Origin: Chitinophagaceae bacterium
GTDB taxonomy: Bacteria; Bacteroidota; Bacteroidia; Chitinophagales; Chitinophagaceae
DNA length: 64,000 bases
Reading direction: 5' to 3'
NCBI GenBank assembly: GCA_025934485.1
Contig: JAICXX010000003.1
Location: 1-64,000 of the forward strand
Shown here: positions 5,638 through 47,304 of the stretch, piece after piece
Layout of the letters: each line of letters begins with the position of its first letter
How positions within the stretch are numbered: position 1 is the first letter of the stretch
The notes under the pieces: model-generated
Told to the model about the DNA's origin: nothing
Database searches by the model: none
What the model saw: only the letters and a program-made list of their open reading frames with translations
Program-made: the position numbers and the translations under genes

Positions 5638-5675
5638 TGTATCAAAAACGAACACTTTTTGTATCAAAAATGAAC
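5638..5675 (+). promoter_or_regulatory. Tandem TGTATC operator sites, copy A
   Basis: Two sites, TGTATCAAAAACGAACA at 5638 and TGTATCAAAAATGAAC at 5660, are spaced 22 bp start to start, about two helical turns. Each is an imperfect dyad of the form TGTnnC-N5-GnnACA. The same 38-bp block recurs at 25345-25382 with 32 of 38 positions identical. Paired upstream sites 50-90 bp from a promoter are what an enhancer-binding NtrC-type activator would use, and one is encoded divergently here; that link is inference. Confidence 0.6.
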
Positions 5676-5728
5676 TATAAACACCGCCGTACCGATCTAA
5701 GAAACTGTAAATCACTGGGATTATATTC

Positions 5729-5745
5729 TGGCATATGTTTGTTAG
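5729..5745 (+). promoter_or_regulatory. -24/-12-like promoter element, copy A
   Basis: TGGCATATGTTTGTTAG lies 91 bp after the start of the tandem operator and matches the element at 25435 in 14 of 17 positions. It resembles a sigma-54 promoter, but nine bases, not the canonical ten, separate GG from the -12 element, and here that element is GT, not GC. The same bases also contain TATGTTTG, a perfect match to the Bacteroidota -7 box TAnnTTTG, so a housekeeping promoter is an alternative reading. Confidence 0.45.
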
Positions 5746-5865: not shown

Positions 5866-7125
5866 ATGGTAGACATTGTCAGACCCAAAAAAAAGTGGTC
5901 AACTAAACGCCTGATGACTATAGGTGGGATCGCAGCACTGGTTTTGTTGATTGCAGCTAGTTTTTATTTTACCTCCGGAAAATCCAAACTCAACGTTGAT
6001 TTAGAACGGATTACGGTTAGCGATATCATAAAAGCCCCCTTCCAGGAATCGATCCCCGAGAACGGGACCGTGATGCCCCTGACCACGATTTATCTCGTGA
6101 CCCCGGACGGCGGTCGCGTAGAACAACGCTATGTGGACGACGGCGCCATCCTCAAAAAGGGTGACCCTATCCTCAAGCTGGCGAACCCGGACGTAGAGAT
6201 CGCACTGGCCAACCAAACCACCCAGGTCTCCACGATGCTCGCAACGATGCAGTTCAGCCGCGTAAGCGCCGAGCAGAATACGGTCACCAAGCTCAACAAT
6301 ATGGCGGATGTACAAAGCCTCTTCATAGAAGCCAAACGCGTCTACGACCTGGACAACAAGCTGTATCCCGAAAAGGCAATCGGCTCCCAGGAATACCAGA
6401 CCGCAGTGAACAACTATAACTATCTTAAGGAGAAGCTCCGCCTCCAGGAAGAGATCCTCCACCAGGATACCTTATCCCGTGAAGCCCAGGAGAAACAAGA
6501 CAAGGAATCCCTGGATCGTGCCCGGCAGACGCTCCTGATCCAGCAACAAAAGGTCGACGGTCTCATCATCCGTGCCCCGGTCGACGGCCAGCTCACCGCC
6601 CTCGACGCCGAGGTCGGCCAGTCCAAAACACCCGGCTATGCGCTCGGCCAGGTGGACGTGCTCAGTGGCTTCAAGATCAGGCTCTCGGATGTGGACGACC
6701 ACTATGTCAACCGCGTCTTCACAGGCCAAAAGGGGACCTTCAGCTACAACGATACCACGTATACGCTCAAGATCTCTAAGGTGTATACGCAGATCACGAA
6801 CGGCCGGTTCATGGTCGATATGACCTTCGTCGGCAAAGAACCCGTGGGCATCCGCAAAGGCCAAACCCTCCAGATCACCCTGGCACTCAGCGATGAAACC
6901 ACCGCCATCCTCGTACCCAAAGGCGGATTCTTCCAGCAAACCGGAGGCAACTGGATCTTCAAGGTGAGCGCAGACGGCAAGACCGCCTATCGCCAGGATA
7001 TCCAGCTCGGCCGCATGAGCACGGATTACTACGAAGTCCTCTCCGGCCTCAAACCCGGCGACAAAGTGGTAACCTCGAGCTACGAGAATTATGGAAACAT
7101 GCAGGAACTTGTTCTAAAGAAATAG
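5866..7125 (+). CDS. HlyD/MacA-type periplasmic adaptor protein
   Basis: Membrane-fusion protein of 419 residues that should bridge inner-membrane permease and outer-membrane TolC. A basic N-terminus and one membrane anchor (17-36) are followed by two halves of a biotinyl-lipoyl-like domain (about 78-108 and 228-252) that flank a long alpha-helical hairpin (about 110-228), then a beta-barrel and membrane-proximal region to the end. Hydrophilic residues dominate the hairpin, as expected for a coiled coil. It is the first gene of the export locus and is divergent from the NtrC-type regulator. A hairpin GGACGCCC-TCC-GGGCGTCC (7169-7187) follows it, before the small secreted-protein gene. Confidence 0.93.
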   Translation: MVDIVRPKKKWSTKRLMTIGGIAALVLLIAASFYFTSGKSKLNVDLERITVSDIIKAPFQESIPENGTVMPLTTIYLVTPDGGRVEQRYVDDGAILKKGDPILKLANPDVEIALANQTTQVSTMLATMQFSRVSAEQNTVTKLNNMADVQSLFIEAKRVYDLDNKLYPEKAIGSQEYQTAVNNYNYLKEKLRLQEEILHQDTLSREAQEKQDKESLDRARQTLLIQQQKVDGLIIRAPVDGQLTALDAEVGQSKTPGYALGQVDVLSGFKIRLSDVDDHYVNRVFTGQKGTFSYNDTTYTLKISKVYTQITNGRFMVDMTFVGKEPVGIRKGQTLQITLALSDETTAILVPKGGFFQQTGGNWIFKVSADGKTAYRQDIQLGRMSTDYYEVLSGLKPGDKVVTSSYENYGNMQELVLKK

Positions 7126-7201
7126 TAATTTGTAACATACGACGCCCGAAACGCGTCAAAAAAAACCAGGACGCCCTCCGGGCGTCCCAAAACCGAAAAA
7201 A

Positions 7202-7393
7202 ATGCGACTCAAACTCTTCTTCACCGTCGGCTTCGTCCTCCTCCTGAGTACGTTCGCCTCCCCCAACGAATGTGCCCGTTATACGCACAAATGCGAGGCG
7301 GGAGTGAAACCAGCGGCAATGCCGGCGCCCAAGGCCGTCACAGTGGATACCGAGTCGTCTACCCTCGTTATCAACAAGCTCCTATACATTTAA
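7202..7393 (+). CDS. Small secreted protein of the export locus, unknown function
   Basis: An open frame of 63 codons between the adaptor and the first ATPase. Residues 1-20 form a clear signal peptide (MRLKL then a hydrophobic run ending STFAS). The mature part of about 40 residues has two cysteines (NECARYTHKCEAG) and a Pro/Ala/Val-rich stretch. I recognise no family. It is spaced 76 bp after the adaptor and 35 bp before the ATPase ATG at 7429, in the same direction, so it is very likely co-transcribed. It could be a cargo, a signal peptide-derived pheromone or a helper of the exporter, none of which the sequence decides. It could also be a chance frame. Confidence 0.5.
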   Translation: MRLKLFFTVGFVLLLSTFASPNECARYTHKCEAGVKPAAMPAPKAVTVDTESSTLVINKLLYI

Positions 7394-7428
7394 ACACTTT
7401 ATATACATCACTTAAACCGCTTATAATT

Positions 7429-8106
7429 ATGATCAAGATCACCGATCTCCAAAAAACCTACCGCACCGAAGAGGTCGAGACCATCGCGCTGAACAAACTC
7501 ACCTTCGAGGTGAAAGAAGGCGAGTTCGTATCGGTAATGGGTCCCTCCGGCTGTGGTAAATCCACCCTGCTCAATATCCTTGGCCTGTTGGATGATCCCG
7601 ATGGCGGTAGCTTTATCTTCAACGGCATCGAAGTCGCTCACTTTAACGAACGCAAACGCGCCGACCTCCGCAAACGCAACATCGGTTTCGTTTTCCAAAG
7701 TTTTAACCTCATCGACGAGCTCACGGTTTTCGAGAACGTGGAACTCCCCCTCATATACCTTGGCGTCAAAGGACCCGAAAGAAAACAACGCGTGGAAACC
7801 GTCCTCGACAAAATGCAGATCATGCATCGCCGCAACCACTACCCCCAGCAGCTTTCCGGTGGTCAGCAACAACGTGTAGCCGTAGCCCGCGCCGTAGTCA
7901 ATAACCCCAAGCTCATTCTGGCGGATGAACCTACAGGTAACCTCGACTCGTCTAACGGTAACGAAGTGATGACCCTGCTTACCGACCTCAACGAGCAAGG
8001 AACGACCATCATCATGGTTACCCACTCCGAACACGACTCCCGCTATAGCCATCGCATCATCCGCATGCTGGACGGTCAGGCCGTAACAGAGAACATTTTA
8101 ATATAA
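7429..8106 (+). CDS. ABC transporter ATPase 1, MacB/LolD-like
   Basis: Nucleotide-binding subunit of 225 residues for the FtsX-type permeases that follow. All motifs are intact: Walker A GPSGCGKST (38-46), Q loop Gln90, signature LSGGQQQR (142-149), Walker B LILADE (162-167), D-loop GNLDS with Asp173, and switch His199. An in-frame ATG exists at 7270, but the alignment with ATPase 2 (same motif numbering) and the overlap with the small secreted frame favour ATG 7429. It is stand-alone, unlike MacB proper, where ATPase and permease are fused. It is followed by 130 bp with a perfect hairpin, then the first of seven permeases. Confidence 0.95.
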   Translation: MIKITDLQKTYRTEEVETIALNKLTFEVKEGEFVSVMGPSGCGKSTLLNILGLLDDPDGGSFIFNGIEVAHFNERKRADLRKRNIGFVFQSFNLIDELTVFENVELPLIYLGVKGPERKQRVETVLDKMQIMHRRNHYPQQLSGGQQQRVAVARAVVNNPKLILADEPTGNLDSSNGNEVMTLLTDLNEQGTTIIMVTHSEHDSRYSHRIIRMLDGQAVTENILI

Positions 8107-8113
8107 GCCCAAA

Positions 8114-8136
8114 CCGCCGACCTTACCAGTCGGCGG
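8114..8136 (+). other. Stable hairpin between ATPase 1 and the first permease
   Basis: Perfect 8-bp stem CCGCCGAC (8114-8121) / GTCGGCGG (8129-8136) with a 7-base loop, directly after the ATPase stop. No T run follows, so it is not a standard terminator; it could protect the 3' end of a processed ATPase message or set relative expression of ATPase and permeases. Confidence 0.5.
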
Positions 8137-8236
8137 CCTCAACGAGGTTCCGCAGTCAATCCAACGATAAAAGTGAGCCGCTTCATGCGGCCCCACCCTT
8201 TCTTTAACCGGCCCGCAAGAGCCCAAAGCCATCGTC

Positions 8237-10672
8237 ATGCTCAAAAATTATCTGAAGATCGCCTTCCGGAATCTCACCAAATACAAATTCATCTCCTTCA
8301 TCAACCTCTTTGGACTTTGTGCCGGTCTTACCTGCTGCCTCCTCATCCTGACCTATATCCTCCACGAGACCAGCTACGACCGTTACAACTCCAAAGCGGA
8401 CCGCATCTGGCGCGTCACCCGGAGCTTCAACAACCCCGAAGGCGTCGTCTCCCTTCACCTCGGCGCCGTGGCTCCACCCTTTGGTCCCCTCCTCAAAAAC
8501 GATTTCCCCGACATCGAGCAGGTCACCCGCATCCTGCCCACCGGCCCAACCGCCTTCCACTATGAGGATAAGATCTTCAACGAAAAGAACGGCTACTTTG
8601 CGGAAAACAACCTCTTCAGCGTTTTCGACATCAACCTCACCGAAGGCGACCGCCATACCGCCCTCGCCGACCCCAATTCCATGATCATCACCCGTGAGCT
8701 CGCACACAAATATTTCGGCGATGCGGACCCGATCAATAAACTCGTTCAGCTCGACAACCGCATCAACTTCAGGGTCACCGGCATCTTCGAACCGCTCCCC
8801 GAGAACTCCCATTTCCACCCGGGGTATCTACTGTCCTTCAACACACTCAAGGACTCCCTTATCTACGGTGAGAACAACCTGCTGCACAACTGGGGCAATA
8901 ACGCCTTCTTCACTTATCTCCTGCTCCCGAAGGATTACCCCGCGAAATCTATCGAAACCCAGTTCCCCGCCTTCCTCGACCGGCGCATGGGCGATAATTA
9001 CGGCCCTGGCGTCAAAGCCTCGAAATTCACCAAACTCTTCCTGCAACGGCTCACCGATATCCATCTTCACTCCCATCTCGACGAAGAGCTGGAACAAAAC
9101 GGTGACATCAGCCGCGTCTACGTCTTTGGCGCCATCGCCCTCTTCATCCTGCTCATCGCCTGCATCAACTATATGAACCTCTCCACCGCCCGCTCCACCC
9201 TGCGGGCAAAGGAGATCGGTATCCGCAAGGTCTCCGGCGCCGGCCGCCCCGAGCTCATCAGCCAGTTCCTCTGTGAATCGGTCCTGATCGGCTACCTCGC
9301 CTTCATCATGGCCACCGGTCTCACCGTCCTGCTGCTGCCATCCGTCGATGACCTCACCGGCCTGCATCTCTCTGTCACCAGTCTGCTGCAACCCGCGGTG
9401 CTCATCCCCGCACTGCTGACACCAATACTCGTAGGCCTCCTCTCCGGCGCCTACCCCGCCCTCTTCCTCAGCTCCTTCCAACCCGTGAAAGTGCTCAAGG
9501 GACTGTTCAAAGCCGGCAGCAGCACCGCTTCCTTCCGCAAGGTCCTCGTAGTAGCGCAGTTCTCGATCTCCATCGTGCTCATCATCAGCACAGCCATCGT
9601 CTTCGAGCAGCTGCACTATATGCAGAACGCCTCCCTGGGCTTCAACAAAGATCATATCGTCGTCATGAGTTATAACCAGGGCCTCGGCAAAAGCTTCAAC
9701 TCGTTCCGTTCTACCTTGCTCCAAAACACCCATATCCTCGCCGCCTCCAGATCGTCCCGCATTCCCAGCGGCCGTCTCCTCGACGAGCAGGGCGCCTCAA
9801 CCGAGAGCGGCGACTCGCTCCGTCCTGTCACCGCAGATATTAAATACGTATCCGTCGATCACGACTTCTTAAAGACCTACGGCATCCCCATCGTCGCAGG
9901 CCGCGACTACAACCGCAGCTACGCCACTGATACAAATAACTTCATCCTCAACGTAGCGGCAACCAGTGTACTGGGCATGCATGATCCCAAACAACTCGTC
10001 GGCAGGAGCTTCGCCTATGGCAATACTAAAGGAAGGGTCATCGGCGTCATGGACAACTTCAATTTCGAATCCATGCACCAGAAGATCATACCCATGATCT
10101 TCACAATGCCTGCCGACTCGGTAGCCAACAACAACTTCAATAACCTATCGATAAAGCTCGCCGGCACCGACATTGCCGGCTCCCTGGCCTGGATCGAAAA
10201 GACCTGGCAGCGCTATCTCCCCGAAGTACCCTTCGAATACACCTTCCTCGACGAAAAATTCGACCAGCTCTATAGAACGGAACAACAGCAAGGCTCCCTG
10301 TTCACTATCTTCTCCGGCATCGCGATCTTCATCGCCTGTCTCGGACTGTTCGGCCTATCCGCCTTCACCATCACCCAGCGGATCAAAGAGATCGGCGTCC
10401 GCAAGGTCCTCGGAGCCAGCACCGGAAGTATCGTACAGCTGCTCTCCACCGATTTCCTGAAACTCGTAGCCATCGCCGCCTGTATCGCCTTCCCCATCGC
10501 CTGGTACGCGATGTACCACTGGCTGAGTGATTTCGCCTACCAAATCCCGATCCATTGGTATGTCTTCCTCGCCGCAGGCTTCCTCGCAGCCCTCATCGCC
10601 CTGGCGACCATAAGCTTCCAAGCGGTGCGTGCAGCCTTGTCTAACCCCGTGAAAGCATTGCGAAGTGAATAA
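8237..10672 (+). CDS. FtsX/MacB-type ABC permease 1 of 7
   Basis: Inner-membrane permease of 811 residues built from two FtsX-like halves. TM1 is at about 22-42, followed by a periplasmic MacB-type domain to about 285, three membrane segments (about 290-430), a second half with its own TM (about 435-455), periplasmic domain and three final segments (about 680-800). Each half has the cytoplasmic coupling motif: AKEIGIRKVSGA near 323 and IKEIGVRKVLGA near 714. The protein ends NPVKALRSE, a terminal signature shared by the whole array. Lacking an ATPase domain, it must use a separate one. It starts 130 bp after ATPase 1 and ends 12 bp before permease 2. Confidence 0.93.
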   Translation: MLKNYLKIAFRNLTKYKFISFINLFGLCAGLTCCLLILTYILHETSYDRYNSKADRIWRVTRSFNNPEGVVSLHLGAVAPPFGPLLKNDFPDIEQVTRILPTGPTAFHYEDKIFNEKNGYFAENNLFSVFDINLTEGDRHTALADPNSMIITRELAHKYFGDADPINKLVQLDNRINFRVTGIFEPLPENSHFHPGYLLSFNTLKDSLIYGENNLLHNWGNNAFFTYLLLPKDYPAKSIETQFPAFLDRRMGDNYGPGVKASKFTKLFLQRLTDIHLHSHLDEELEQNGDISRVYVFGAIALFILLIACINYMNLSTARSTLRAKEIGIRKVSGAGRPELISQFLCESVLIGYLAFIMATGLTVLLLPSVDDLTGLHLSVTSLLQPAVLIPALLTPILVGLLSGAYPALFLSSFQPVKVLKGLFKAGSSTASFRKVLVVAQFSISIVLIISTAIVFEQLHYMQNASLGFNKDHIVVMSYNQGLGKSFNSFRSTLLQNTHILAASRSSRIPSGRLLDEQGASTESGDSLRPVTADIKYVSVDHDFLKTYGIPIVAGRDYNRSYATDTNNFILNVAATSVLGMHDPKQLVGRSFAYGNTKGRVIGVMDNFNFESMHQKIIPMIFTMPADSVANNNFNNLSIKLAGTDIAGSLAWIEKTWQRYLPEVPFEYTFLDEKFDQLYRTEQQQGSLFTIFSGIAIFIACLGLFGLSAFTITQRIKEIGVRKVLGASTGSIVQLLSTDFLKLVAIAACIAFPIAWYAMYHWLSDFAYQIPIHWYVFLAAGFLAALIALATISFQAVRAALSNPVKALRSE

Positions 10673-10684
10673 AACACACGACAT

Positions 10685-13126
10685 ATGCTTAAGAACCATC
10701 TGCGGCTTGCCTGGCGAAACCTGAGCAAACGAAAGGGTTACTCGGCACTCAATATCCTCGGCCTCACCATCGGCATCACCTGCTTCCTGCTCATCTTCCA
10801 CTATGTGGCTTATGAACGCAGCTACGACGCCTTTCAACAGGACGCGGGCCGGATCGTCCGACTCCGCCTCGACCAATACCAGGACGGCAAACTGGCCTGG
10901 AAATCGGCGACCTCCTTCACCGCCATCGCCCCGGCCATGAAAAAGGAGTACCCCGAAGTAGCAGACTACTGCCGTCTCATCGACGCCGAAATGCTGCTCA
11001 CCAACCAGGAAAGAAATGTAAAATCGAGCGAACTCAAAGGCTATTTCGCCGATGCCTCGGTCATCCCCTTCTTCGACCTTCATTTCGTCGCGGGCAACCC
11101 CGCCACCGCCCTCGACGGGCCCTACAAAATGCTGCTGTCGGCAAGCATGGCCAAAAAATACTTTGGTAACGAACCCGCCCTGGGAAAGCGGCTCAAAGGC
11201 CTGTATAACGGGTCCACGGAAAGCTTTGAGGTCACCGGCGTATTCAAAGACTATCCCGCCAACTCCCACCTCATCCTCAACCACCTTGTCTCCTTTTCCA
11301 GCCTCACCCAGATACGCCGGGAACAGGGCGATTCCTCCAATTCGTCGAACCTCTCCTGGGGATGGTACGACTTCTATATCTACCTGCAGCTCAAACCCGG
11401 CACCAGCTACAAAGCGCTGGAAGCAAAATTACCCGCCTTCTGCGACCGTCACATGAACAACGACGATTGGCACAAAAAGAACAATGTCCGGCAAGAGCTG
11501 CATCTCATCCCCCTGAGCGACATCCATCTCTATTCCAACTACAACCAGGAAGCCGAGGTCAACGGCAACGGCAAAGCCGTGGATTTCCTCTTCCTCATCG
11601 CCTTCCTGATCATCGCCATCGCCTGGATCAACTATACAAACCTCGCCACCGCCCGTTCGCTTGAACGGGCCAAGGAGGTCGGTCTCCGAAAGGTCCTCGG
11701 CGCCATCCGCACCGACCTCGTCCTGCAATTCCTGACCGAAAGCCTCTTACTCAACACCATCGCCGCGATCCTGGCGATCAGCCTCGCCTGGATCCTCGCC
11801 CCCTCCTTCGATACCCTCATCGGAAGCGACGCGGGCAGCTTCATGTTGCCACCCGCCTACCTGCTCGGCTTCGCAGGCATCTTCTTCCTTGGCTCGTTTT
11901 TATCCGGCCTCTACCCCGCCTTCGTACTCTCCGGTTATCACCCCATCACCGTACTCAAAGGTCTCTTCAAGAACAGCGCCCGCGGCCAAATCCTCCGAAA
12001 GGTCCTCATCATCGGCCAGTTCGCCGTTTCCGTGATCCTGATCACCGGTACCATCCTCGTCTACCAGCAGGTCCAATACATGCGCCGTCAGCAGCTCGGC
12101 GTCGACATCGACCGGACCCTCATCGTCGAGGGCCCGGCCTCACCACAAGATTCTGTCTATAAAAACGTCTTCCAGCCGTTCAAGACAACGCTCCTGCAAC
12201 AACCCGGCATTCGAAGCATCACCGCATCCACCAATGTCATGGGACAGGAGATCTACTGGACAAATGGCATTCAGCCCCTCGGGAAAGATTCCCGGCCCGA
12301 GCTCACCCTCTATATACTCGGCATCGACTACGACTTTATCCCCGCCTACTCGCTCCGACTCGTCGCCGGCCGAAACTTCTCACCCCAGTTTTCCACGGAC
12401 GACAAAGGCGCGCTGATCAACGAGACCGCCGCCCGTATGATCGGCTATCCCAAACCCGCCGATGCCCTGGGTCAAAAGTTGGTACGCGGCCGCGATACGC
12501 TGCACATCGTCGGCGTCACCGCAGATTATCATCACCAGGGACTGCAAAAAGCCATCGACCCGATGCTCTTCCTGTATGGCCCGAATGTCCGCAGCTATTA
12601 TTCGATCAAATTCAACAGCGCCGACCTGCACGGGGCCATTGCGGCGATAAAACGCAGCTGGGATAGCCATTTTCCAAACGACCCGTTCAACTATTTCTTC
12701 CTCGACGAATCGTTCAACCAACAATACAAGGCCGACACCCGCTTCGGCGAAGTCTTCGGCCTCTTCGCGACCATCGCCATCCTCATCGCCTGTTTCGGCC
12801 TGCTCGGCCTCTCCGCCTACAACGTACTGCAACGGACTAAAGAGATCGGCATCCGCAAAGTCCTCGGCGCCAGCTCGCAAAGCCTCGTCGTCCTGCTTTC
12901 CCGCGACTTCGCTGCCCTCGTGCTCTTCTCTCTGGTCATCGCCGTCCCCCTGACCTGGTGGGTGATGCACAATTGGCTGCAGGACTTCGCCTATCGCATC
13001 GATATCCAATGGTGGACCTTTGCCCTCGGCGGCCTCGCGGCCCTGTTCATCGCCCTGACGACCGTAGGCATCCAGGCGGCGAAAGCGGCTATGAATAACC
13101 CCGTAAAAAGTTTGCGAAGTGAATAG
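10685..13126 (+). CDS. FtsX/MacB-type ABC permease 2 of 7
   Basis: Permease of 813 residues with the same double FtsX architecture. It begins MLKNHLRLAWRNLSKRKGYS, then TM1 (about 22-40). Coupling motifs are AKEVGLRKVLGA near 327 and TKEIGIRKVLGA near 718; the periplasmic motif AKKYFGNEPALGK is intact; the C-terminus is NPVKSLRSE. By eye its closest relative in the array is permease 4: the stretch before TM2 reads EAEVNGNGKAVDFL here and EAETNGDGKAVYFL there, followed by the nearly shared AWINYTNLATARS, which points to a duplication after which another permease lies between them. Only 12 bp separate it from permease 1. Confidence 0.93.
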   Translation: MLKNHLRLAWRNLSKRKGYSALNILGLTIGITCFLLIFHYVAYERSYDAFQQDAGRIVRLRLDQYQDGKLAWKSATSFTAIAPAMKKEYPEVADYCRLIDAEMLLTNQERNVKSSELKGYFADASVIPFFDLHFVAGNPATALDGPYKMLLSASMAKKYFGNEPALGKRLKGLYNGSTESFEVTGVFKDYPANSHLILNHLVSFSSLTQIRREQGDSSNSSNLSWGWYDFYIYLQLKPGTSYKALEAKLPAFCDRHMNNDDWHKKNNVRQELHLIPLSDIHLYSNYNQEAEVNGNGKAVDFLFLIAFLIIAIAWINYTNLATARSLERAKEVGLRKVLGAIRTDLVLQFLTESLLLNTIAAILAISLAWILAPSFDTLIGSDAGSFMLPPAYLLGFAGIFFLGSFLSGLYPAFVLSGYHPITVLKGLFKNSARGQILRKVLIIGQFAVSVILITGTILVYQQVQYMRRQQLGVDIDRTLIVEGPASPQDSVYKNVFQPFKTTLLQQPGIRSITASTNVMGQEIYWTNGIQPLGKDSRPELTLYILGIDYDFIPAYSLRLVAGRNFSPQFSTDDKGALINETAARMIGYPKPADALGQKLVRGRDTLHIVGVTADYHHQGLQKAIDPMLFLYGPNVRSYYSIKFNSADLHGAIAAIKRSWDSHFPNDPFNYFFLDESFNQQYKADTRFGEVFGLFATIAILIACFGLLGLSAYNVLQRTKEIGIRKVLGASSQSLVVLLSRDFAALVLFSLVIAVPLTWWVMHNWLQDFAYRIDIQWWTFALGGLAALFIALTTVGIQAAKAAMNNPVKSLRSE

Positions 13127-13150
13127 AATACAACCTCAGAACAGAATAAC

Positions 13151-15541: not shown

Positions 15542-15558
15542 CAACCCTCCGGCCCTAT

Positions 15559-15584
15559 GCAACATTTCGATCACCTCAAACGAC
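15559..15584 (+). promoter_or_regulatory. ECF-like promoter motif ahead of permease 4
   Basis: GCAACATTTC at 15559 and CGAC at 15581-15584, 22 bases start to start, end 10 bp before the ATG at 15595. Same motif and same spacing as at 18064 (permease 5), and a near match to 1817 (LytTR regulator). Confidence 0.45.
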
Positions 15585-15594
15585 TTTATAAATC

Positions 15595-18006: not shown

Positions 18007-18039
18007 GCCACCGGCCCCATCCGGCCCCCGCCCCGTCCC

Positions 18040-18053
18040 CCGGCCATGGCCGG
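18040..18053. repeat. GC-rich palindrome between permeases 4 and 5
   Basis: CCGGCCATGGCCGG, a perfect 14-bp palindrome in a C-rich stretch. A close relative, CCGGCCCATGGCCGG, occurs at 45075 and 45200, so this is one of the recurring intergenic palindromes of the window. Confidence 0.6.
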
Positions 18054-18063
18054 CCGGCCCCAT

Positions 18064-18089
18064 GCAACATTCCAGTCGACACAAGCGAC
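18064..18089 (+). promoter_or_regulatory. ECF-like promoter motif ahead of permease 5
   Basis: GCAACATTCC at 18064 and CGAC at 18086-18089, 22 bases start to start, just ahead of the ATG at 18098. Identical spacing to the copy at 15559. Confidence 0.45.
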
Positions 18090-18097
18090 GTTAAGAT

Positions 18098-20485: not shown

Positions 20486-20514
20486 AAAACTTATCTTAGC
20501 TCAAAGGCCCATCC

Positions 20515-22890
20515 ATGAATATGATGTTCAAAACCCTCCTTCGTCAGCTCCGCAAATACCCGACATTCTCCCTGATCAATATCGGCGGCCTCGCCATCGG
20601 CATCGCCGCCTCCTTCGTCCTGCTGATCTATACCCAACGCGAGCTCACGGTCGACCACCAGTTCCGCGATGCGGACCGGATCGCCCGCATCTGCACCGAT
20701 TTCTACCACATGGGCCCCTTTGCCTTCAGCCAACCCATGATGCGCAACATCGTCATGGCAACTTGCAAAGACGTTGAGAACGCCACCGCCATCAACAGAA
20801 GCACCGACCTGGATGTCCGCACCAGCCTCAACGACCGCGCCTTCACCGGCAATGAATCCTATGATATCGATTCATCTTTCTTCCAGGTCTTTTCCTACGA
20901 GGCCGCCACAGGCTCCATCCCGGCACATGGCCTTGCACCCAATCAAACCATCCTCACCGCAGCCAAGGCCCGCCAGTTCTTCGGCTCGCAGAACTGCACC
21001 GGCAAAACACTCTATATCGGCAAAGAGAATACACCCTATACCGTCGTAGCCGTATTAGCCGAAACCACCGCCAAATCGCACCTCTTTCCCCAGATCTTTC
21101 TTCCCCGCAAATTCGATTCAGCCGAAAACTCCACTAACTGGGCCTCCTGTCTTTATTTTAACTATGTCAAGCTAAAACCGCAGGGCACGCTCGCCGGTCT
21201 CGAAGCCTGGCTGGCCCAGCTCCGCCGCAAGGTCATCTATCCCACCGTGGGAACCGCCCAGACCTGGGACGTATGGAACACAGCCAGCAATACCATCACC
21301 TTCCTGGTCCAGCCCCTCGAATCCATTCATTTCGACAATCGCGCGATCTTCGGCTTCACCGCCGGCGGCAACCTCACCCAGGTCCGCCTCCTCGGCTCCG
21401 TCGCCATCCTCCTGATCCTGCTGGCCATCATCAACTATATCAACCTCATCACCGCCCGGTCCTCCATCCGCGCCAAAGAGATGGGACTCAAAAAAACCTT
21501 TGGGGCACCCCGCCGCACCCTCATCGGTCAGGTCATCCGCGAATCCGTGATTTTCAGCGGTCTCGCCATGCTCCTCGCCTGCGGCCTGATCCAGGTCATT
21601 CTCTTTACTTACCAATATGTTACCGGTGCCGAGCTCACGGGGCCCATCCCCTTCCTCTCCGCCAACTACCTTTACCTGATCGCCTTTTCGCTCCTGGTAG
21701 GTATCCTGGCCGGAAGCTATCCCGCATTCTATCTCACGGGTGAGCGTAACCGCCTCACGATCCGCAGCAGCGGCACCGGCCGGGAACGCGCCGGCATCCG
21801 CAACGTACTCGTCACCCTGCAGTTCGTTATCGCCACCGGTCTCGTCTTCGTTTCCTTCATCGTCTACAGCCAGCTGCATTTCATGAAGAGCAAAGACAAA
21901 GGCTTCACCTCCCAGGGCCTCGTCATCATCAATAACACCGGGGAATTGGAAGACCACGCCGAAGCCTTCCGCCAGCTGGTCGCACAGCAGGCTGCAGTCG
22001 TCAGCACCAGCTTCTCGAACCGCGTCCCCGCCGGTAACACCGTCGCCATGGGAACCTATGAGATGCCCAAAACAAAAAAATGGCTCAGCATCCAGGAATT
22101 CGGCGCGGACGATCATTATCTCAACACCATGGGGATGCACCTGATCAGCGGCAGGAACTTCGAAAGAAGCCTGCTATCGGACACCAATTCGCTTATCCTT
22201 AACGAATCCGCCGTAGCCGCATTGGGCCTCTTCAACCCGGTGGGCACACTCATCAACGGCAGCGAACGCGTCATCGGCGTCGTCAAAGATTTCAACTACG
22301 CCTCGATGCGCGAAAAGATCGCCCCCGCCATCCTGCGCTTCAAACCCGCCGCCAACCGAACGCTCGTCATCCGCTTGCGGGGCGGCAACACCGCCGCCTT
22401 TATCGATTGGCTGCACGCCACCGGACATCGATTCATACCCGATGCCAAACTCGATATCAGCTTCCTCGACGATACCTTCGCTCATCTCGCGGACAAAGAA
22501 CGACGCCTCGGCGACGCCATCAGCTTCTTCACCATCCTGGCCATCATCCTCGCCGTACTCGGCCTCATAGGGCTAACACTTTTCACCATCGAACGCCGCA
22601 CCAGGGAGATCGGCATTCGCCGCGTCCTTGGCGCCACCGATCACAACATCCTCGCCCTCGTCTCGGGTAATTTCATCCGGCTCGGCGCCATCGCCAGCGC
22701 GATCGCCCTGCCCCTCAGCTGGTGGCTCATCGACCGCTGGCTCGACAACTATGCCTATCGGATATCTATAACCGCAGGCCCATTTCTTGAGACGTTAGCC
22801 CTGATCCTGGCGATCGCCTTGGCCGTCATCGGCATCCTCACCCTAAAAGCCATCACGGCCAACCCGGTGAAAAGTCTCAGAAGCGAATAA
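20515..22890 (+). CDS. FtsX/MacB-type ABC permease 6 of 7, most divergent copy
   Basis: Permease of 791 residues, the shortest of the array. The reading frame opens MNMMFKTLL; by comparison with the MLKN/MIKN starts of its paralogues, translation may really begin at the third or fourth codon. TM1 is at about 24-42. The coupling motifs deviate most: AKEMGLKKTFGA near 319 and TREIGIRRVLGA near 697. The conserved periplasmic YFGN is FFGS. The first half has an unusually long loop with two Trp (AQTWDVWNTAS). C-terminus NPVKSLRSE. Only 9 bp separate it from permease 7, so these two are surely co-translated. Confidence 0.92.
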   Translation: MNMMFKTLLRQLRKYPTFSLINIGGLAIGIAASFVLLIYTQRELTVDHQFRDADRIARICTDFYHMGPFAFSQPMMRNIVMATCKDVENATAINRSTDLDVRTSLNDRAFTGNESYDIDSSFFQVFSYEAATGSIPAHGLAPNQTILTAAKARQFFGSQNCTGKTLYIGKENTPYTVVAVLAETTAKSHLFPQIFLPRKFDSAENSTNWASCLYFNYVKLKPQGTLAGLEAWLAQLRRKVIYPTVGTAQTWDVWNTASNTITFLVQPLESIHFDNRAIFGFTAGGNLTQVRLLGSVAILLILLAIINYINLITARSSIRAKEMGLKKTFGAPRRTLIGQVIRESVIFSGLAMLLACGLIQVILFTYQYVTGAELTGPIPFLSANYLYLIAFSLLVGILAGSYPAFYLTGERNRLTIRSSGTGRERAGIRNVLVTLQFVIATGLVFVSFIVYSQLHFMKSKDKGFTSQGLVIINNTGELEDHAEAFRQLVAQQAAVVSTSFSNRVPAGNTVAMGTYEMPKTKKWLSIQEFGADDHYLNTMGMHLISGRNFERSLLSDTNSLILNESAVAALGLFNPVGTLINGSERVIGVVKDFNYASMREKIAPAILRFKPAANRTLVIRLRGGNTAAFIDWLHATGHRFIPDAKLDISFLDDTFAHLADKERRLGDAISFFTILAIILAVLGLIGLTLFTIERRTREIGIRRVLGATDHNILALVSGNFIRLGAIASAIALPLSWWLIDRWLDNYAYRISITAGPFLETLALILAIALAVIGILTLKAITANPVKSLRSE

Positions 22891-22899
22891 ACGTGTCTC

Positions 22900-25344
22900 A
22901 TGATAAAAAACTATTGGCGCACCGCCCTGCGCAACCTTTGGCACACAAGGACCTTTTCCATCATCAATATCTTCGGTCTCGCCATTGGACTTTGCGCCGC
23001 CCTGGTGATCTGGCTCGTCGTCCATTTCGACCTCGGCTTCGAGAACTTCCGGCCGGAGAGAGACCGTATCCACCGCATCGTCCTCGACGCCAATTTTTCG
23101 GGCGAGACCTTTCACATGGCCGGCGTTCCCTTCGCGATGCCCGCCGCCATCGCGACAGAACTCACCGGCATAAAAAATGTTACCCCCATCTATTTCACCA
23201 GCCTCGAGGTAGCGATCCCGCGCCCCGGCCAGTCCAATCCCACCGTGTTCAAAGGCCCAAACCGCACGGTCTATACCAATGCCCATTATTTTTCGCTCTT
23301 TCATTCCTATACCTGGCTTGCCGGCTCGGCCACGCCGCTCGATGCCCCCTATCACACCGTGCTTACAAAAAGCCGAGCCGCCACCTACTTCCCCGGTCTT
23401 AACCCCACCGAGATCATCGGCAAGACCATCACCTACAACGATAGCCTCAACGCCATTGTCTGCGGCATTGCCAGCGACCCACCCGCGAACACCGACCTCG
23501 ATTGGAACGAATTCGTATCCATCTCCACCCTCGCACATACGAACACCCGCTATGCCGATCCTAACGAATGGGGCAATTTCACCGACGCCTCCGAATGCTT
23601 TTTCGAGCTGGCGCCCGGCATCCAACCCGCTGCCATCGAGAGCCAGCTCATCAGGCTCTGGAAAAAACACGCCGCCGACGCCGGACCCGGCAACAGCTAT
23701 AACTGGCGTCTGCAGCCCCTCAGCGATCTCCACTTCAACCCTTTCTATACGCCCTTCTACCACCGCACCGCCCATAAACCCACACTCTATGGTTTGATGC
23801 TGGTAGCCGTCTTCCTGCTGGCCCTCGGGTGCATCAATTTTATCAACCTCACAACGGCTAACGCCTCACGCCGCGCCCGCGAGATCGGCGTCCGCAAGAC
23901 CTTTGGCAGCTCCCGCTCCCAGCTTCTCTTACAATTCCTCGGCGAGACCTTCCTGCTCACCATGCTGAGCCTCACCTTATCCCTCGCCCTCACGCCCTGG
24001 CTCCTCCGCGCATTCTCGGATTTCATCCCGCGGGATCTGCATTTCAATTTCTTCCATCAGCCCGCCCTATGGCTGTTCCTGCTGATGCTGCTCCTCGCCG
24101 TGACCCTCCTCGCGGGATTCTACCCGTCATGGATACTTGCCCGGCTCCAGCCTATCCAGGTGCTCAGAAATCAGCCGGTCGCCGGCGCAACATCCCGCCG
24201 CGCGGTACTCCGCAAGATCTTAACGGTCTTTCAGTTCACCGTCGCCCAGGCCTTTATTATCGCCACCGTCATCGTGGGACACCAACTGCACTATTCCCTC
24301 ACCGCCGACCTGGGCTTTAAAAAGGACGCCATCGTCAACCTCGAAACCCCCTATACCGCCGACGCCGCCGACAACAAACGTTTCCTCTTGCTGGACCGCA
24401 TCCGGAACCTGCCCGGAATAGAACGCGCCGGCATCGGCGGCATCGCTCCTTCCGGCGAATACCCGAACACCAGCGAATTCACCTATACAAACGGCACACA
24501 GAAACGGGACATGCAGCTCGAGCTCCGCGACGGCGACAGCAATTATATCCGCATCTATCATCTCCAGCTTCTCGCCGGCCGTAACCTGCGGCCCAGTGAC
24601 AGCAGCACCGAGTTGATCATCAACCGGTCGTTATGCACCTTTCTCGGTTTTAGAAACCCCGCCGATGCCATCGGCAAGATCCTGCTGAACGGCAGCCAGC
24701 CGGTTCCCATCGTGGGCGTCATAACGGATTTTCACCAGGCAGGCATGCATACCCTGATAAAACCGCTGGTCCTTACCTGGTCGAACAAAGACCAGTTCAC
24801 GATCCATATTGCCCTCCGGCCCCAGACACCGGATGGCGCCGGCTGGAAAACAACCATGGCGCTGGTGGAAAAAACCTATCGGGAAACTTATCCCGGCCGG
24901 AACTTCGACTTCGCCTTCCTGGACGACGTCATCGCCAAATATTATGTGGCCGAGCAACAGCTGTCCACGCTGCTCCGCTGGGCCACCGGCCTCACGATCT
25001 TCATCAGCTGCCTCGGCCTGGCCGGCCTGGTCATCTTCACGACCAACGCCCGCACCAAAGAGATAGGTATCCGAAAGGTTTTGGGAGCACCCGTCGCCAC
25101 CATTATCGCCCTGCTTTCCAAAGAATTCGTAAAATTGCTGCTCATCGCCTTCGCCATCGCCGCGCCGGCAGCCTGGTGGGCCATCCACAAATGGCTCGAA
25201 AGCTTCGCTTACCGCGCACCGGTAAGCGGGTGGACCTTCGCCCTCGCCGGCCTAACGATGATGGGCATTGCCCTGCTGACGATGAGCATCCGCACCATCC
25301 GGGCGGCCACGGCCAATCCGGTGGACGCATTACGTACAGATTAG
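22900..25344 (+). CDS. FtsX/MacB-type ABC permease 7 of 7
   Basis: Permease of 814 residues, the last of the tandem array. TM1 at about 22-42. Coupling motifs are AREIGVRKTFGS near 325 (the lysine of the usual AKE replaced by Arg) and TKEIGIRKVLGA near 718. The periplasmic YFGN motif is altered to YFPG with an insertion after it. C-terminus NPVDALRTD. The stop codon overlaps the edge of regulatory module copy B: the first TGTATC site begins at 25345, the very next base, so the array ends exactly where the second transcription unit begins. Confidence 0.93.
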   Translation: MIKNYWRTALRNLWHTRTFSIINIFGLAIGLCAALVIWLVVHFDLGFENFRPERDRIHRIVLDANFSGETFHMAGVPFAMPAAIATELTGIKNVTPIYFTSLEVAIPRPGQSNPTVFKGPNRTVYTNAHYFSLFHSYTWLAGSATPLDAPYHTVLTKSRAATYFPGLNPTEIIGKTITYNDSLNAIVCGIASDPPANTDLDWNEFVSISTLAHTNTRYADPNEWGNFTDASECFFELAPGIQPAAIESQLIRLWKKHAADAGPGNSYNWRLQPLSDLHFNPFYTPFYHRTAHKPTLYGLMLVAVFLLALGCINFINLTTANASRRAREIGVRKTFGSSRSQLLLQFLGETFLLTMLSLTLSLALTPWLLRAFSDFIPRDLHFNFFHQPALWLFLLMLLLAVTLLAGFYPSWILARLQPIQVLRNQPVAGATSRRAVLRKILTVFQFTVAQAFIIATVIVGHQLHYSLTADLGFKKDAIVNLETPYTADAADNKRFLLLDRIRNLPGIERAGIGGIAPSGEYPNTSEFTYTNGTQKRDMQLELRDGDSNYIRIYHLQLLAGRNLRPSDSSTELIINRSLCTFLGFRNPADAIGKILLNGSQPVPIVGVITDFHQAGMHTLIKPLVLTWSNKDQFTIHIALRPQTPDGAGWKTTMALVEKTYRETYPGRNFDFAFLDDVIAKYYVAEQQLSTLLRWATGLTIFISCLGLAGLVIFTTNARTKEIGIRKVLGAPVATIIALLSKEFVKLLLIAFAIAAPAAWWAIHKWLESFAYRAPVSGWTFALAGLTMMGIALLTMSIRTIRAATANPVDALRTD

Positions 25345-25382
25345 TGTATCAAAATCGTACACTTTTTGTATCGAAAGCGGAC
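25345..25382 (+). promoter_or_regulatory. Tandem TGTATC operator sites, copy B
   Basis: TGTATCAAAATCGTACA at 25345 and TGTATCGAAAGCGGAC at 25367, 22 bp apart as in copy A. The first site, with the flanking G, forms the dyad GTGTA..TACAC (25344-25362). 32 of 38 positions match copy A at 5638-5675, although the sequence between operator and promoter-like element does not. Confidence 0.6.
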
Positions 25383-25434
25383 CCAATCCTCCGGCTGATC
25401 GGCACAAAAACCTGCCTATCAACCAATTGCAAAC

Positions 25435-25451
25435 TGGCATGTGTTTGCAAG
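25435..25451 (+). promoter_or_regulatory. -24/-12-like promoter element, copy B
   Basis: TGGCATGTGTTTGCAAG, 90 bp after the start of operator copy B (91 bp in copy A). It carries GG and GC, as sigma-54 promoters do, but nine bases rather than ten separate them. A start about 12 bp downstream would give a leader of about 30 bases before ATPase 2 at 25490. No terminator lies in this leader, unlike copy A. Confidence 0.45.
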
Positions 25452-25489
25452 GAAAGGGCCCAGAGACAGTAATCTCTAATTAGTTTAAT

Positions 25490-26158
25490 ATGATCGATCT
25501 TAAGCGCATTTCAAAATGGGTAAACGTTGGCGGAAAACCCAACTTCATTCTAAAGGACGTCAACCTGGAGATCAAAGAAGGAGAATTCGTCTCTATCATG
25601 GGCCCTTCCGGCTCAGGCAAATCCAGCCTCCTGAACATCATCGGCATGCTCGACGACTCGTCCGAAGGAGAGTATTTTTTTCTCGGTCAGCCCGTCCACA
25701 GCCTTAGGGAAAAACAACGCTCCCAGCTCTACAAACAGTACATCGGATTCGTCTTTCAGGCCTACCACCTCATCGACGAGCTCACGGTATACGAGAACAT
25801 CGAAACACCCCTGATCTACCAGAACATCAAATCCTCCGAACGGCAGGCCATGGTAGCCGATATCCTGGACCGGTTCCAGATCGTCGGAAAAAAAGATCTT
25901 TTCCCGACCCAGCTATCCGGCGGTCAGCAACAGCTCGTAGGCATCGCCCGCGCCCTTATAGGTAAACCCAAACTGTTGCTCGCGGATGAACCCACCGGCA
26001 ACCTCAACTCGCGCCAGGGAGAAGAGATCATGGAATTGTTCAAACAACTCAATAGCGAAGGCGTCACCATCGTGCAGGTCACCCACTCGGAAAAAAATGC
26101 CGAATACGGTTCACGCATCATCAACCTGCTGGATGGACGTATAGATAATTTCAACTAA
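25490..26158 (+). CDS. ABC transporter ATPase 2 with altered signature and D-loop
   Basis: Nucleotide-binding subunit of 222 residues, collinear with ATPase 1 without gaps across the motifs. Walker A is GPSGSGKSS (38-46), Q loop Gln90, Walker B LLLADE (162-167), switch His199. Two positions depart from ATPase 1 and from the family: the signature is LSGGQQQL (Leu149 for Arg) and the D-loop is GNLNS (Asn173 for Asp). These sit at the dimer interface, so the protein may hydrolyse ATP poorly or work as the weaker half of a heterodimer with ATPase 1 (inference). Starts its own unit behind regulatory module B; TolC follows after 8 bp. Confidence 0.93.
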   Translation: MIDLKRISKWVNVGGKPNFILKDVNLEIKEGEFVSIMGPSGSGKSSLLNIIGMLDDSSEGEYFFLGQPVHSLREKQRSQLYKQYIGFVFQAYHLIDELTVYENIETPLIYQNIKSSERQAMVADILDRFQIVGKKDLFPTQLSGGQQQLVGIARALIGKPKLLLADEPTGNLNSRQGEEIMELFKQLNSEGVTIVQVTHSEKNAEYGSRIINLLDGRIDNFN

Positions 26159-26166
26159 TCGAAACA

Positions 26167-27666
26167 ATGCGAAACTCATCCTTTCTTCTTTTGCTTTTGT
26201 CCTTTTCCCTATCCACCGGCCTCCGCGCGCAAAACAACGCGGGCATCCTGGCCGCCCAAAACGACCGGAGCCAGCAGGATTCAATCGGTGCTATCCTTAC
26301 ATTGCCGCAAGCCGTGACAATCGCCATTAAGAATAACCTCGTGGTCGCCCAATCCGATCTCAATTCGCAAAACTATAAGATCGGTTTCGACCAGTCCTGG
26401 GAATACATGTTGCCAACCCTGAGCGCCAACGGCGGCCAGCAGATCAACTTTGGCCGTACCATCAACAGTTCCAACAACAACCAGTATGTCTCTTCCCAGT
26501 TCAGCACCGGGAACGCCGGCCTCAGTGGCGGCCTGCTCCTTTTCCACGGGCTCGAGCTGCAGAACAACTATCAGGCACAGCGTTATGCCTATAACGCCAG
26601 CAAAATGGACTTGCAACAGCAAAAGGATAATATCACATTGAGCGTTCTCCTGGCCTATCTCCAGGTGCTCAGCAGCCGCGACCAGCTGGCACTGGCCTAT
26701 GAGCAGGCCCGGACGGACAGTGTTACGCTGGACCTCACCGCTAAAAAAGGGAAGGAGGGCGCCCTCAACCCCGTTTCCAATCTCACCGACCTGCAGGGTA
26801 AATATGCCAGCGACCAGGTCAACATCGCGGGCGCCATCAACACCCTCGAATCGAACAAGGTCGCGCTGTTTGCCTTACTCAACGTACCGTATAGACGAGA
26901 TGTGGAATATCAGAACAGCATTACCGCCACCGATATCAACGATTACCAGGCCAGCTCGGACAGCATCTACCAGCACGCCCTCGGCATCCTCCCGTCGATC
27001 CGATCGTCCCAGCTCAAGGTCCAGGAATACCAACGGCTCCTCGCCTATTATCGCGGCGCCTATTACCCGACCATCTCCCTCAATGCCGGCGTAAGCACGA
27101 ACTGGACAAACGCTCCGGGCGCAACCTCCTTCGTCCAAACCGGCGCCCCCACCTACGTGCCGAACACGGATGGGTTCTATTCCGATCCCAATGGCAACAA
27201 CATCATTTACTCACAAAAGGTTCCTGGATACGACGTCTATCCCAAATTCGGCGACCAGTTCAAGAACAACCGCAGCGAATACGTCGGCCTCTCTGTCAAC
27301 ATCCCGATCCTCAACGGCTTCCAGGCCCGGAACAATGTCCGCCAGGCCAAGCTCAACCTCAAGAACTATGAGCTTCAGTATACATACAACAAAAACTATT
27401 GGCAACAGCAGGTAGAGCTGGCTTTCCAGAACATGATCGCCGCGTACAAAAGCTTGAAATTCTACCAACAGGAAGCTACTGCCTTCGAAGAATCCTTCCG
27501 CGTCACCAATATCCGTTTCAACGAAGGCGTTATCGCCTCCGATGCCTATATCGTGGCCAAGGGCAATAGCGACCAGGCCGAGGTCAACCTCGCGGCCGCG
27601 AAATACATCTATATCTTCCGCACTAAAGTGTTGGATTATTACCAGGGCAAACTTACGATCCCATAA
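26167..27666 (+). CDS. TolC-family outer membrane efflux protein
   Basis: Outer-membrane channel protein of 499 residues. A signal peptide (1-21, MRNSS then a Leu/Ser-rich core ending LRA) is followed by two OEP repeats made of long helices alternating with beta strands: LTLPQAVTIAIKNN near 44 begins the first, and the second half ends with the typical FRTKVLDYYQGKL. Gln-, Asn- and Tyr-rich strands fit a trimeric barrel and tunnel. It follows ATPase 2 by 8 bp and completes the set needed for a MacA-MacB-TolC-like exporter. No other outer-membrane channel gene is in the window. Confidence 0.93.
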   Translation: MRNSSFLLLLLSFSLSTGLRAQNNAGILAAQNDRSQQDSIGAILTLPQAVTIAIKNNLVVAQSDLNSQNYKIGFDQSWEYMLPTLSANGGQQINFGRTINSSNNNQYVSSQFSTGNAGLSGGLLLFHGLELQNNYQAQRYAYNASKMDLQQQKDNITLSVLLAYLQVLSSRDQLALAYEQARTDSVTLDLTAKKGKEGALNPVSNLTDLQGKYASDQVNIAGAINTLESNKVALFALLNVPYRRDVEYQNSITATDINDYQASSDSIYQHALGILPSIRSSQLKVQEYQRLLAYYRGAYYPTISLNAGVSTNWTNAPGATSFVQTGAPTYVPNTDGFYSDPNGNNIIYSQKVPGYDVYPKFGDQFKNNRSEYVGLSVNIPILNGFQARNNVRQAKLNLKNYELQYTYNKNYWQQQVELAFQNMIAAYKSLKFYQQEATAFEESFRVTNIRFNEGVIASDAYIVAKGNSDQAEVNLAAAKYIYIFRTKVLDYYQGKLTIP

Positions 27667-28779: not shown

Positions 28780-28877
28780 GGCGATTCCAATTTCGCTGCA
28801 AAATAAGGGCGATCCGAGTTATGCGCGAAATGGCTGCGAAAAAAAATCGGCCATTTCCGCAAAAAAGGCCAATGTCT

Positions 28878-28906
28878 GCCCTTCGGGCGAACCGCCTCCG
28901 GCGGTT
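28878..28906 (+). other. Two adjacent small hairpins between metX and the osmC-like gene
   Basis: GCCC-TTC-GGGC (28878-28888), with the very stable C(TTCG)G arrangement, is followed by AACCGCC-TCC-GGCGGTT (28890-28906) and then TT. Both hairpin types recur between genes in this window. The second could act as a weak rightward terminator just ahead of the -7 box at 28913. Confidence 0.5.
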
Positions 28907-28912
28907 TTGGGT

Positions 28913-28920
28913 TATTTTTG
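28913..28920 (+). promoter_or_regulatory. -7 box of the osmC-like/metZ promoter
   Basis: TATTTTTG matches the Bacteroidota -7 consensus TAnnTTTG exactly, 15 bp ahead of the ATG at 28936. No TTTG is found at the expected -33 distance. Confidence 0.5.
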
Positions 28921-28935
28921 CAAAAAAATCGTTCG

Positions 28936-47013: not shown

Positions 47014-47304
47014 ATGGAAGTCAATGACGCACTGATCGATAATCTTTCCAACCTGGCTCGCCTGGAATTCAACACCGTTGAAAAGGAAGCGATTAAGCAC
47101 GATCTGCAACGCATGATCCAGTTCGTCGAAAAACTGGGCGAACTCGATACTACCGGCGTCGCCCCCCTGCTGCACATGAGCCCCGAGACCAATGTGCTCC
47201 GGGACGACACACCCGCCGGCTCCGTCAGCCGCGAAGAAGCCCTGGCCGGCGCACCCGCTACCGACGGCAGGTATTTTGAAGTCCCGAAAGTTATCAGAAA
47301 ATAA
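47014..47304 (+). CDS. gatC: Asp/Glu-tRNA amidotransferase subunit C
   Basis: Small stabilising subunit (96 residues) of GatCAB, which converts Glu-tRNA-Gln and Asp-tRNA-Asn to the amide forms. Typical features: helical N-terminus [13 protein letters not shown], a region with [14 protein letters not shown] near 46, and the C-terminal [10 protein letters not shown] that wraps GatA. gatA and gatB are not adjacent. The ATG at 47014 follows a full promoter. Its stop overlaps the ATG of the next ATPase gene (TAATG). Confidence 0.93.

Follow-up and report, generated by a model that had tools for sequence, protein, structure and literature searches.

Which permeases does an export locus serve when it encodes seven of them around a single adaptor and a single outer-membrane channel? 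The question is raised by a 64,000-nucleotide stretch of DNA from a Chitinophagaceae bacterium (assembly GCA_025934485.1, contig JAICXX010000003.1, positions 1 to 64,000 of the forward strand; hereafter the window). Here, genes for a periplasmic adaptor, two stand-alone ATPases and a TolC-type channel, which we call the hub, frame an array of seven double-FtsX permease genes (p1 to p7). We found at least 85 full-length double-FtsX permeases in this genome, 7 in the array and 78 dispersed. Judged from sequence, we consider it probable that a single MacAB-TolC-like hub under two-component control energises a large set of orphan permeases that are interchangeable. Co-regulation of the hub and the dispersed permeases is well supported by their promoter sequences; from this and from the rarity of adjoining ATPase genes we infer that the dispersed permeases physically share the hub ATPases, adaptor and TolC.

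The genome (6.75 Mb in 381 contigs) is that of a soil bacterium related to Puia, and a MacB_PCD profile search of it gave 150 domain matches. The permease census covered 80 of 81 planned stretches plus the window, and open reading frames (ORFs) of at least 730 residues were kept, which amounted to 85 of 100 permease-like pieces. Flanks of up to about 2.5 kb were checked for ATPases by BLASTP (E 1e-5) with the window proteins, and no LolD/MacB-type ATPase was found in them directly beside 77 of the 78 dispersed permeases; the other one (L141) has such a gene. When the whole genome was compared with hub ATPase 1, only ATPase 2 exceeded 50% identity, and five more ATPase genes matched at 39-47%. 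Two of these five, at 47304 and 49266 of the window, have MacB and LolD models as their best matches.

The coupling motif is present in 79 of the 85 N halves and 73 of the 85 C halves, and 68 permeases have both. Across the 85 proteins the periplasmic stretches are the most variable parts, and the coupling helices of the N half differ consistently from those of the C half.

The seven array genes had been described in a preliminary description, made from the letters of the window, as consecutive and intact, with nothing between them and with both coupling motifs and a C-terminal signature in every copy. We found the same, at the same lengths. None of p1 to p7 has an internal stop, and the gaps between them are only 9-91 bp, so no further gene lies among them. 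MacB_PCD and FtsX exceed the Pfam cut-offs in two stretches each in all seven; likewise, both coupling motifs occur in 7/7, as does the C-terminal NPxxxLR(S/T)(E/D). Pseudogenes were rejected because the frames are free of stops and the array copies keep their coupling motifs; none is decayed. Family matches also confirmed an adaptor and an ATPase on the left and a second ATPase and TolC on the right.

Identity to p1 is 32-38% for the array permeases p2 to p7. A tree built from 162 permeases places each of p1 to p7 with hub permeases of related genomes and not with its neighbours in the array (the seven clades recorded have support of 0.947-1.0); dispersed permeases fall among these clades. 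The positional orthology that a phylogeny had been proposed to reveal is thus borne out. Recent tandem duplication was rejected, given this low identity and the nearest kin of each copy in the hubs of other genomes. Since each copy groups in this way, the sequences mark the array as an old set with gains and losses and no fresh tandem expansion.

Two functions had been suggested for the seven copies. Interchangeable permeases on a shared ATPase and adaptor fit the sequence evidence, but the set is the genome's roughly 85 and not seven. Hetero-oligomers are unnecessary, because each permease chain is already a two-half pseudo-dimer, like the single-chain YbbAP permease.

A putative operator shared by hub and dispersed genes

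Both hub promoters contain a tandem dyad, with copies 22 bp apart, followed by a -24/-12-like box. Allowing at most one mismatch, we found 26 dyad sites in the genome versus 0 for the reversed pattern. Three of the sites are at the hub, 18 stand before dispersed permeases, and 5 are elsewhere (a DUF2807 gene, a TMEM260-like gene, a short permease-like fragment, a DUF4440 gene and one site inside a coding frame). Chance origin of the motif was rejected on the reversed pattern and on shuffle controls.

A dyad matrix was then made from 69 hub-promoter sites of other genomes; it includes some same-genus genomes and excludes the genome itself as well as the eight loci closest to the window (L196-L203). 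The test set was the 76 dispersed permeases with a usable start and upstream sequence, that is, 88 ORFs with a readable N-terminus less the 7 window copies and 5 others. The matrix matched before 32 of the 76; on the wrong strand it matched before a single one of them, and shuffles gave about 0. Over both strands of the fetched dispersed loci there were 36 matches in total. The dyad lies 68-72 bp from the -24-like GG in 29 of the 32 promoters, and two of the other three have a second dyad-like copy that would restore the spacing (not counted here). This geometry is that of the hubs, where the second dyad is 69-71 bp from the -24-like box in 25 of the 26 promoters of 20 genus hub loci. A GG-N10-[GC] box occurs within the last 80 nt of 26 of the 32 dyad-bearing dispersed promoters versus 2.7 in shuffles.

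The candidate activator is encoded divergently from the hub. It is a sigma-54-dependent response regulator whose sigma-54 interaction domain (PF00158) scores 218.1 bits; against the NCBIfam AtoC, ZraR and NtrC models it scores below the cut-offs. The regulator gene is present in 19 of 20 genus hub loci (the remaining locus is cut by a contig end) and was seen in 75 of 80 named hub loci, with 2 of the other 5 cut by contig ends. The histidine kinase gene beside it adjoins the hub in relatives too, in both genus and named loci, and we count regulator and kinase as parts of the system.

Hubs in related genomes and competing explanations

Twenty hub loci of the genus were compared, each gene being counted where the sequence reaches it. 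Identity to the window is 88-97% for ATPase 1, 78-96% for ATPase 2, 70-92% for the regulator and 62-78% for the adaptor. A neighbouring MacB/LolD-type ATPase is 79-91% identical within the genus and falls below ATPase 1 in 12 of 12 genomes (in one of them ATPase 1 is partial). The LSGGQQQR motif of ATPase 1 is conserved in all 77 unique relatives and its GNLD in 76 of them, the remaining one being unreadable; for ATPase 2, LSGGQQQL and GNLN are present in all 13 compared. Wherever the sequence of a genus hub extends far enough, the genes for adaptor, ATPases and TolC are found together. The number of intact permeases between the two ATPases ranges from 0 (L185, L189) to 8 (G002), and the array of G015 has at least 11 before the fetched sequence ends. 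In G006, whose hub array (L185) holds only a fragment, there are still at least 19 matches to the ADOP permease model in the genome. The hub TolC is far less conserved than the adaptor and the ATPases (34-57% in the genus hubs reached).

The preliminary description tentatively placed multi-permease loci in Chitinophagaceae; this is correct, and Sphingobacteriaceae genera such as Mucilaginibacter have hubs too. Among the best 80 of at least 564 adaptor loci, the nearest named relatives include Puia dinghuensis and Flavitalea sp., with further hubs in Mucilaginibacter, Parafilimonas, Filimonas, Sediminibacterium, Ginsengibacter, Terrimonas, Segetibacter, Arcticibacter and Pedobacter. Of the named hub loci, 79 have upstream DNA that can be read, and the dyad precedes the adaptor gene in 77 of them; among 400 shuffled windows it occurred in 2. 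Each of the 23 same-genus genomes holds two or more dyads (control 0-2), and by the same search 15 genomes of other families have 0-2 (control 0-4). P. dinghuensis has 23 non-hub dyad sites, of which 17 precede a permease by 96-136 bp. Seven genomes from other genera gave 29 sites; of the 25 that were examined, 10 are at hub promoters, 12 stand before permeases and 3 are elsewhere, and 6 of these 12 are either more than 80 kb from the hub or on a different contig. At the level of sequence, Mucilaginibacter, Ginsengibacter and Segetibacter display the dyad-permease pattern on a smaller scale.

Co-occurrence was scored in 119 genomes of the order that were at least 90% complete, with an adaptor threshold of E <= 1e-60. 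At most seven candidates per genome were scored with the ADOP model and the best E-values used; weaker double permeases may exist elsewhere. A match at E < 1e-60 was found in 15 of 15 genomes with the adaptor versus 3 of 104 without it (G095, G096 and G134; Fisher 2e-16). The dyad occurs in 11 of 11 genomes with a close adaptor versus 18 of 108 others, which have at most two sites each; within the family the figures are 10 of 10 versus 1 of 9. These p-values overstate independence, because the genomes are related.

Several observations weigh against one hub serving the whole set. The cross-genome co-occurrence is partly shared ancestry, and the association of dyad and adaptor is partly circular because the sole dyad in G091, G137 and G140 is the hub promoter itself. 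In the other genera, the remaining 6 of the 12 sites before permeases are no more than about 50 kb from a hub gene and may be part of hub arrays. No adaptor ortholog was found in two same-genus genomes (G003 and G022, 78-80% complete), despite their permeases and dyads. Three loci (L257, L266, L270) keep the tandem dyad without a regulator beside the adaptor gene, so another activator may bind the dyads. In the window, both hub boxes have the spacing GG-N9-G, which lacks one base of the canonical sigma-54 distance, and the same holds for those hub boxes of relatives that were read. Within the genome, 44 of the 76 dispersed permeases have no clear dyad. Among the 78 dispersed permeases, L116 has an ATPase-like gene of 32% identity about 0.9 kb upstream, and L092 has a 607-residue ATP-binding cassette (ABC) protein nearby. 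Finally, permeases at contig ends may have escaped the census, which covered 80 of its 81 planned stretches.

Three other explanations were considered. We think it unlikely that hub and dispersed permeases form a shared regulon of separate machines, in which the regulator co-activates all of them as an envelope response while the dispersed permeases use other ATPases or none and never touch the hub adaptor or TolC. Against this, no LolD/MacB-type ATPase was found directly beside the dispersed permeases in the fetched flanks, L141 excepted, and their coupling motifs are mostly kept. Strong double-permease matches are also almost absent from adaptor-less genomes, and ATPase 1 is more conserved than its sister ATPase. 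What speaks for separate machines is that the promoters alone are shown to be shared, that the genome has a few other LolD/MacB-type ATPases, and that some dyad targets are not permeases (the TMEM260-like, DUF2807 and DUF4440 genes).

The permeases might instead be sensors or mechanotransmission devices of the FtsEX or BceAB kind, with adaptor and TolC serving one or few of them. The folds of FtsX and BceAB do match the predicted p1 model, and two-component genes adjoin the hub. This explanation is nonetheless quite improbable, as both permease halves have MacB-type periplasmic domains, the genus hubs keep their export genes together, and in NCBIfam the adaptor and each of the two ATPases match 'Dar' export proteins best. 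That the hub is a local multi-permease MacAB-TolC operon used by the seven array permeases only, with unrelated duplicates dispersed, is very improbable, since the dispersed genes share its dyads and promoter geometry, array and dispersed permeases are intermixed in the tree, and G006 still has its many ADOP matches with an array that holds only a fragment, even though the array is old, has members with hub orthologs and comes with its own adaptor, ATPases and TolC.

Known systems and a proposed mechanism

The locus resembles MacAB-TolC (the MacB family of type VII ABC exporters) in its adaptor, its TolC, its MacB_PCD and FtsX domains and its LolD/MacB-type ATPase, and the two halves of the p1 model superpose on MacB. 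It differs in having separate ATPase genes, two unlike ATPases, a single-chain double permease, many permeases per hub and sigma-54 two-component control. The hub proteins score far below the cut-off of the MacB equivalog, and none is a fused chain of an ATPase and one FtsX half. The darobactin exporter DarBCD likewise combines a permease, a stand-alone ATPase and an adaptor; it has one permease. All scores are below the DarBCD equivalog cut-offs (145.8 against 450 bits for the adaptor, 297.5 and 243.8 against 375 for the ATPases, and 56.5-155.1 against 700 for the permeases).

The permeases themselves resemble the ADOP family (TIGR03434) in length (about 800 residues), whole-model alignment and high copy number. 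All seven array permeases score 258.6-333.3 bits, below the curated cut-off of 622.3, and none of the 119 genomes of the order exceeds it among the up to seven candidates scored in each. The best stretch is the whole protein in five of the seven, and runs from residue 293 in p1 and from 241 in p3 to the end. As to the orphan habit of ADOP, 77 of the 78 dispersed relatives have no ATPase of this type directly beside them in the fetched flanks, and the seven hub copies are not orphans. High copy numbers are already on record, with 28 and 33 orphan permease copies reported for two Dyadobacter genomes in a species description (PMC11573002). Different from ADOP is the presence of a hub with ATPases, adaptor and TolC, and of promoters that tie this hub to the orphans.

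By its predicted model, p1 shares the single-chain pseudo-dimeric permease fold of E. coli YbbAP at 13% identity; the YbbP family model (NF041854) matches p7 only, with 19 bits versus a cut-off of 999. YbbAP works with one kind of ATPase, and we know of no adaptor or TolC partner for it.

For an energising module shared by transport subunits that are encoded elsewhere, there are two precedents. Group II energy-coupling factor (ECF) importers have two unlike ATPases, a T component and dispersed S components. The ATPase MceG serves Mce1 and Mce4 (PMC9947336). Both systems are importers, in which sharing is shown or argued; here, sharing is what we infer, and an export duct of adaptor and TolC would lie within the shared module.

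Regarding promoters, the available part of a 2025 survey reports that sigma-54 promoters are enriched before COG0577 FtsX-like permeases in Bacteroidia, and this part names no hub, operator, regulator or relation of orphans to an ATPase (PMC12316311). In a literature search that left most subscription papers outside, we found no description of the hub, of a shared operator or regulon, or of a hub-orphan link for these permeases. The link of sigma-54 to COG0577 and the orphan copy numbers were already published.

If one hub does energise the orphan permeases, it could work as follows. The hub response regulator would bind the putative dyad sites and switch on hub and permeases together. The signal is perhaps envelope stress, a guess that comes from the use of sigma-54 in Flavobacterium psychrophilum (PMC9723704). 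Each permease, with two halves and a periplasmic head of its own, would be a whole MacB-like transmembrane unit that docks onto the shared ATPases through conserved coupling helices. It would then engage the shared adaptor and TolC and expel one class of periplasmic or membrane-embedded substrate by mechanotransmission, as may be expected from the MacB family (review PMC8277102). Specificity would come from the periplasmic head, and energy and duct from the hub.

A weak step of this scheme is a possible pairing of ATPase 1 with ATPase 2, as a heterodimer that would fit the two unlike halves of the permease. It is conceivable because the N and C coupling helices differ consistently and because, in MacB, coupling helices contact only the ATPase of their own protomer (PMC8277102). 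A heterodimer seems not to be required, since the similar chain of YbbAP manages with one kind of ATPase.

Tentatively, and with somewhat more doubt than belief, the whole may be pictured as a group II ECF importer in reverse. A constant module (an ATPase heterodimer, adaptor and TolC, perhaps with a small exported peptide) would be shared in turn by about 85 competing pseudo-dimeric permeases, most of them encoded far away, and one sigma-54 two-component system would set the hub and many of the permeases. On this view, the ADOP-like permeases of Bacteroidota, orphaned for so long, would find their function in this sharing.

Duplicated FtsX permeases that occur in many copies are at present recorded as orphans with no assigned function, and a shared hub would give them a likely engine, duct and control circuit; the promoter signature is simple enough for predicting members. 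If true, it would be a shared-engine design for export across two membranes, and transporter numbers would be read differently from such genomes. To our knowledge, shared-engine designs are known only for importers.

Gene inventory and minor promoter elements

The features of the hub locus are collected in Table 1. The genes listed in the preliminary description are right; missing from it were the 63-residue gene, the regulator, the kinase and the predicted dyads and promoters. The start of ATPase 1 was moved, as it is probably the ATG at 7429 (225 residues) rather than 7270, since family matches begin at residue 54 of the long ORF.

Table 1. Genes and predicted control elements of the hub locus (window coordinates; HTH, helix-turn-helix; pLDDT, predicted local distance difference test)
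Feature	Position	Strand	Evidence or remark
Histidine kinase, partner of the regulator	2725..4071	-	Pfam HATPase_c; 8 bp from regulator gene
Sigma-54-dependent response regulator	4080..5444	-	Pfam: receiver, Sigma54_activat, Fis-type HTH; divergent to hub
Putative tandem upstream activating dyads, hub promoter 1	5638..5677	+	Dyad TGTATCRAAANNGNACAC, 22 bp apart
Sigma-54-like -24/-12 box	5729..5744	+	TGGCATATGTTTGTTA; 70 bp from second dyad
Periplasmic adaptor, MacA/HlyD type, 419 residues	5866..7125	+	NCBIfam RND_mfp 119.1 bits (cut-off 94.9); Pfam HlyD_3 over cut-off
Small signal-peptide-like protein, 63 residues, hydrophobic C-terminus	7202..7393	+	Between adaptor and ATPase 1 genes
Hub ATPase 1 (LSGGQQQR, GNLD), 225 residues	7429..8106	+	Family matches; long ORF 7270-8106
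Permease p1, double FtsX, 811 residues	8237..10672	+	Pfam; predicted model, mean pLDDT 82.4
Permease p2, 813 residues	10685..13126	+	Pfam, tree
Permease p3, 796 residues	13151..15541	+	Pfam, tree
ECF-type-promoter-like element before p4	15558..15592	+	TGCAACATT
Permease p4, 803 residues	15595..18006	+	Pfam, tree
ECF-type-promoter-like element before p5	18063..18097	+	
Permease p5, 795 residues	18098..20485	+	Pfam, tree
Permease p6, 791 residues	20515..22890	+	Pfam, tree
Permease p7, 814 residues	22900..25344	+	Pfam, tree
Putative tandem upstream activating dyads, hub promoter 2	25345..25384	+	Dyad TGTATCRAAANNGNACAC
Sigma-54-like box	25435..25450	+	TGGCATGTGTTTGCAA; 69 bp from second dyad
Hub ATPase 2 (LSGGQQQL, GNLN), 222 residues	25490..26158	+	51% identical to ATPase 1
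TolC-type outer-membrane channel, 499 residues	26167..27666	+	Pfam OEP 143.2 bits

The 63-residue gene is kept in 12 of 19 genus hubs examined, where the gap is about 260 bp or more, and also in named loci; it is missing from the other 7 of the 19, all with a gap of 31-78 bp. The middle of the protein is variable, and its C-terminus reads KLLYI in the window and FLYI or FFIKI in others. It is a possible signal, substrate or accessory protein.

A second promoter-like element, TGCAACATT, resembles an extracytoplasmic function (ECF) sigma promoter. Among the 44 dispersed permeases without a clear dyad, 11 have such an ECF-like TGYAACMWT element (0.1 expected) and 12 have a sigma-54-like box (3.4 in shuffles). 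From these sequences, the ECF-like element appears to mark a second control class within the same permease family. It was rejected as a general hub promoter, being near the dyads in only 6 of 20 genus hubs. In the window it stands at 1816, 5464, 5554, 15558 and 18063, and it is also found at dispersed loci (L068, L077, L081, L087, L089 and others), often followed by CGTCCTA-like bases.

The gene for a TMEM260-like protein O-mannosyl-transferase has a dyad both in this genome (L023) and in P. dinghuensis (L318). That a gene other than a permease carries the dyad in two species may point to surface glycosylation as a part of this response.

Directly after the hub, at 27691-30545 of the window, are a gene with an alpha/beta-hydrolase fold and a gene for a Cys/Met pyridoxal phosphate enzyme. 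The same two genes follow the hub in many genus hubs whose sequence extends that far.

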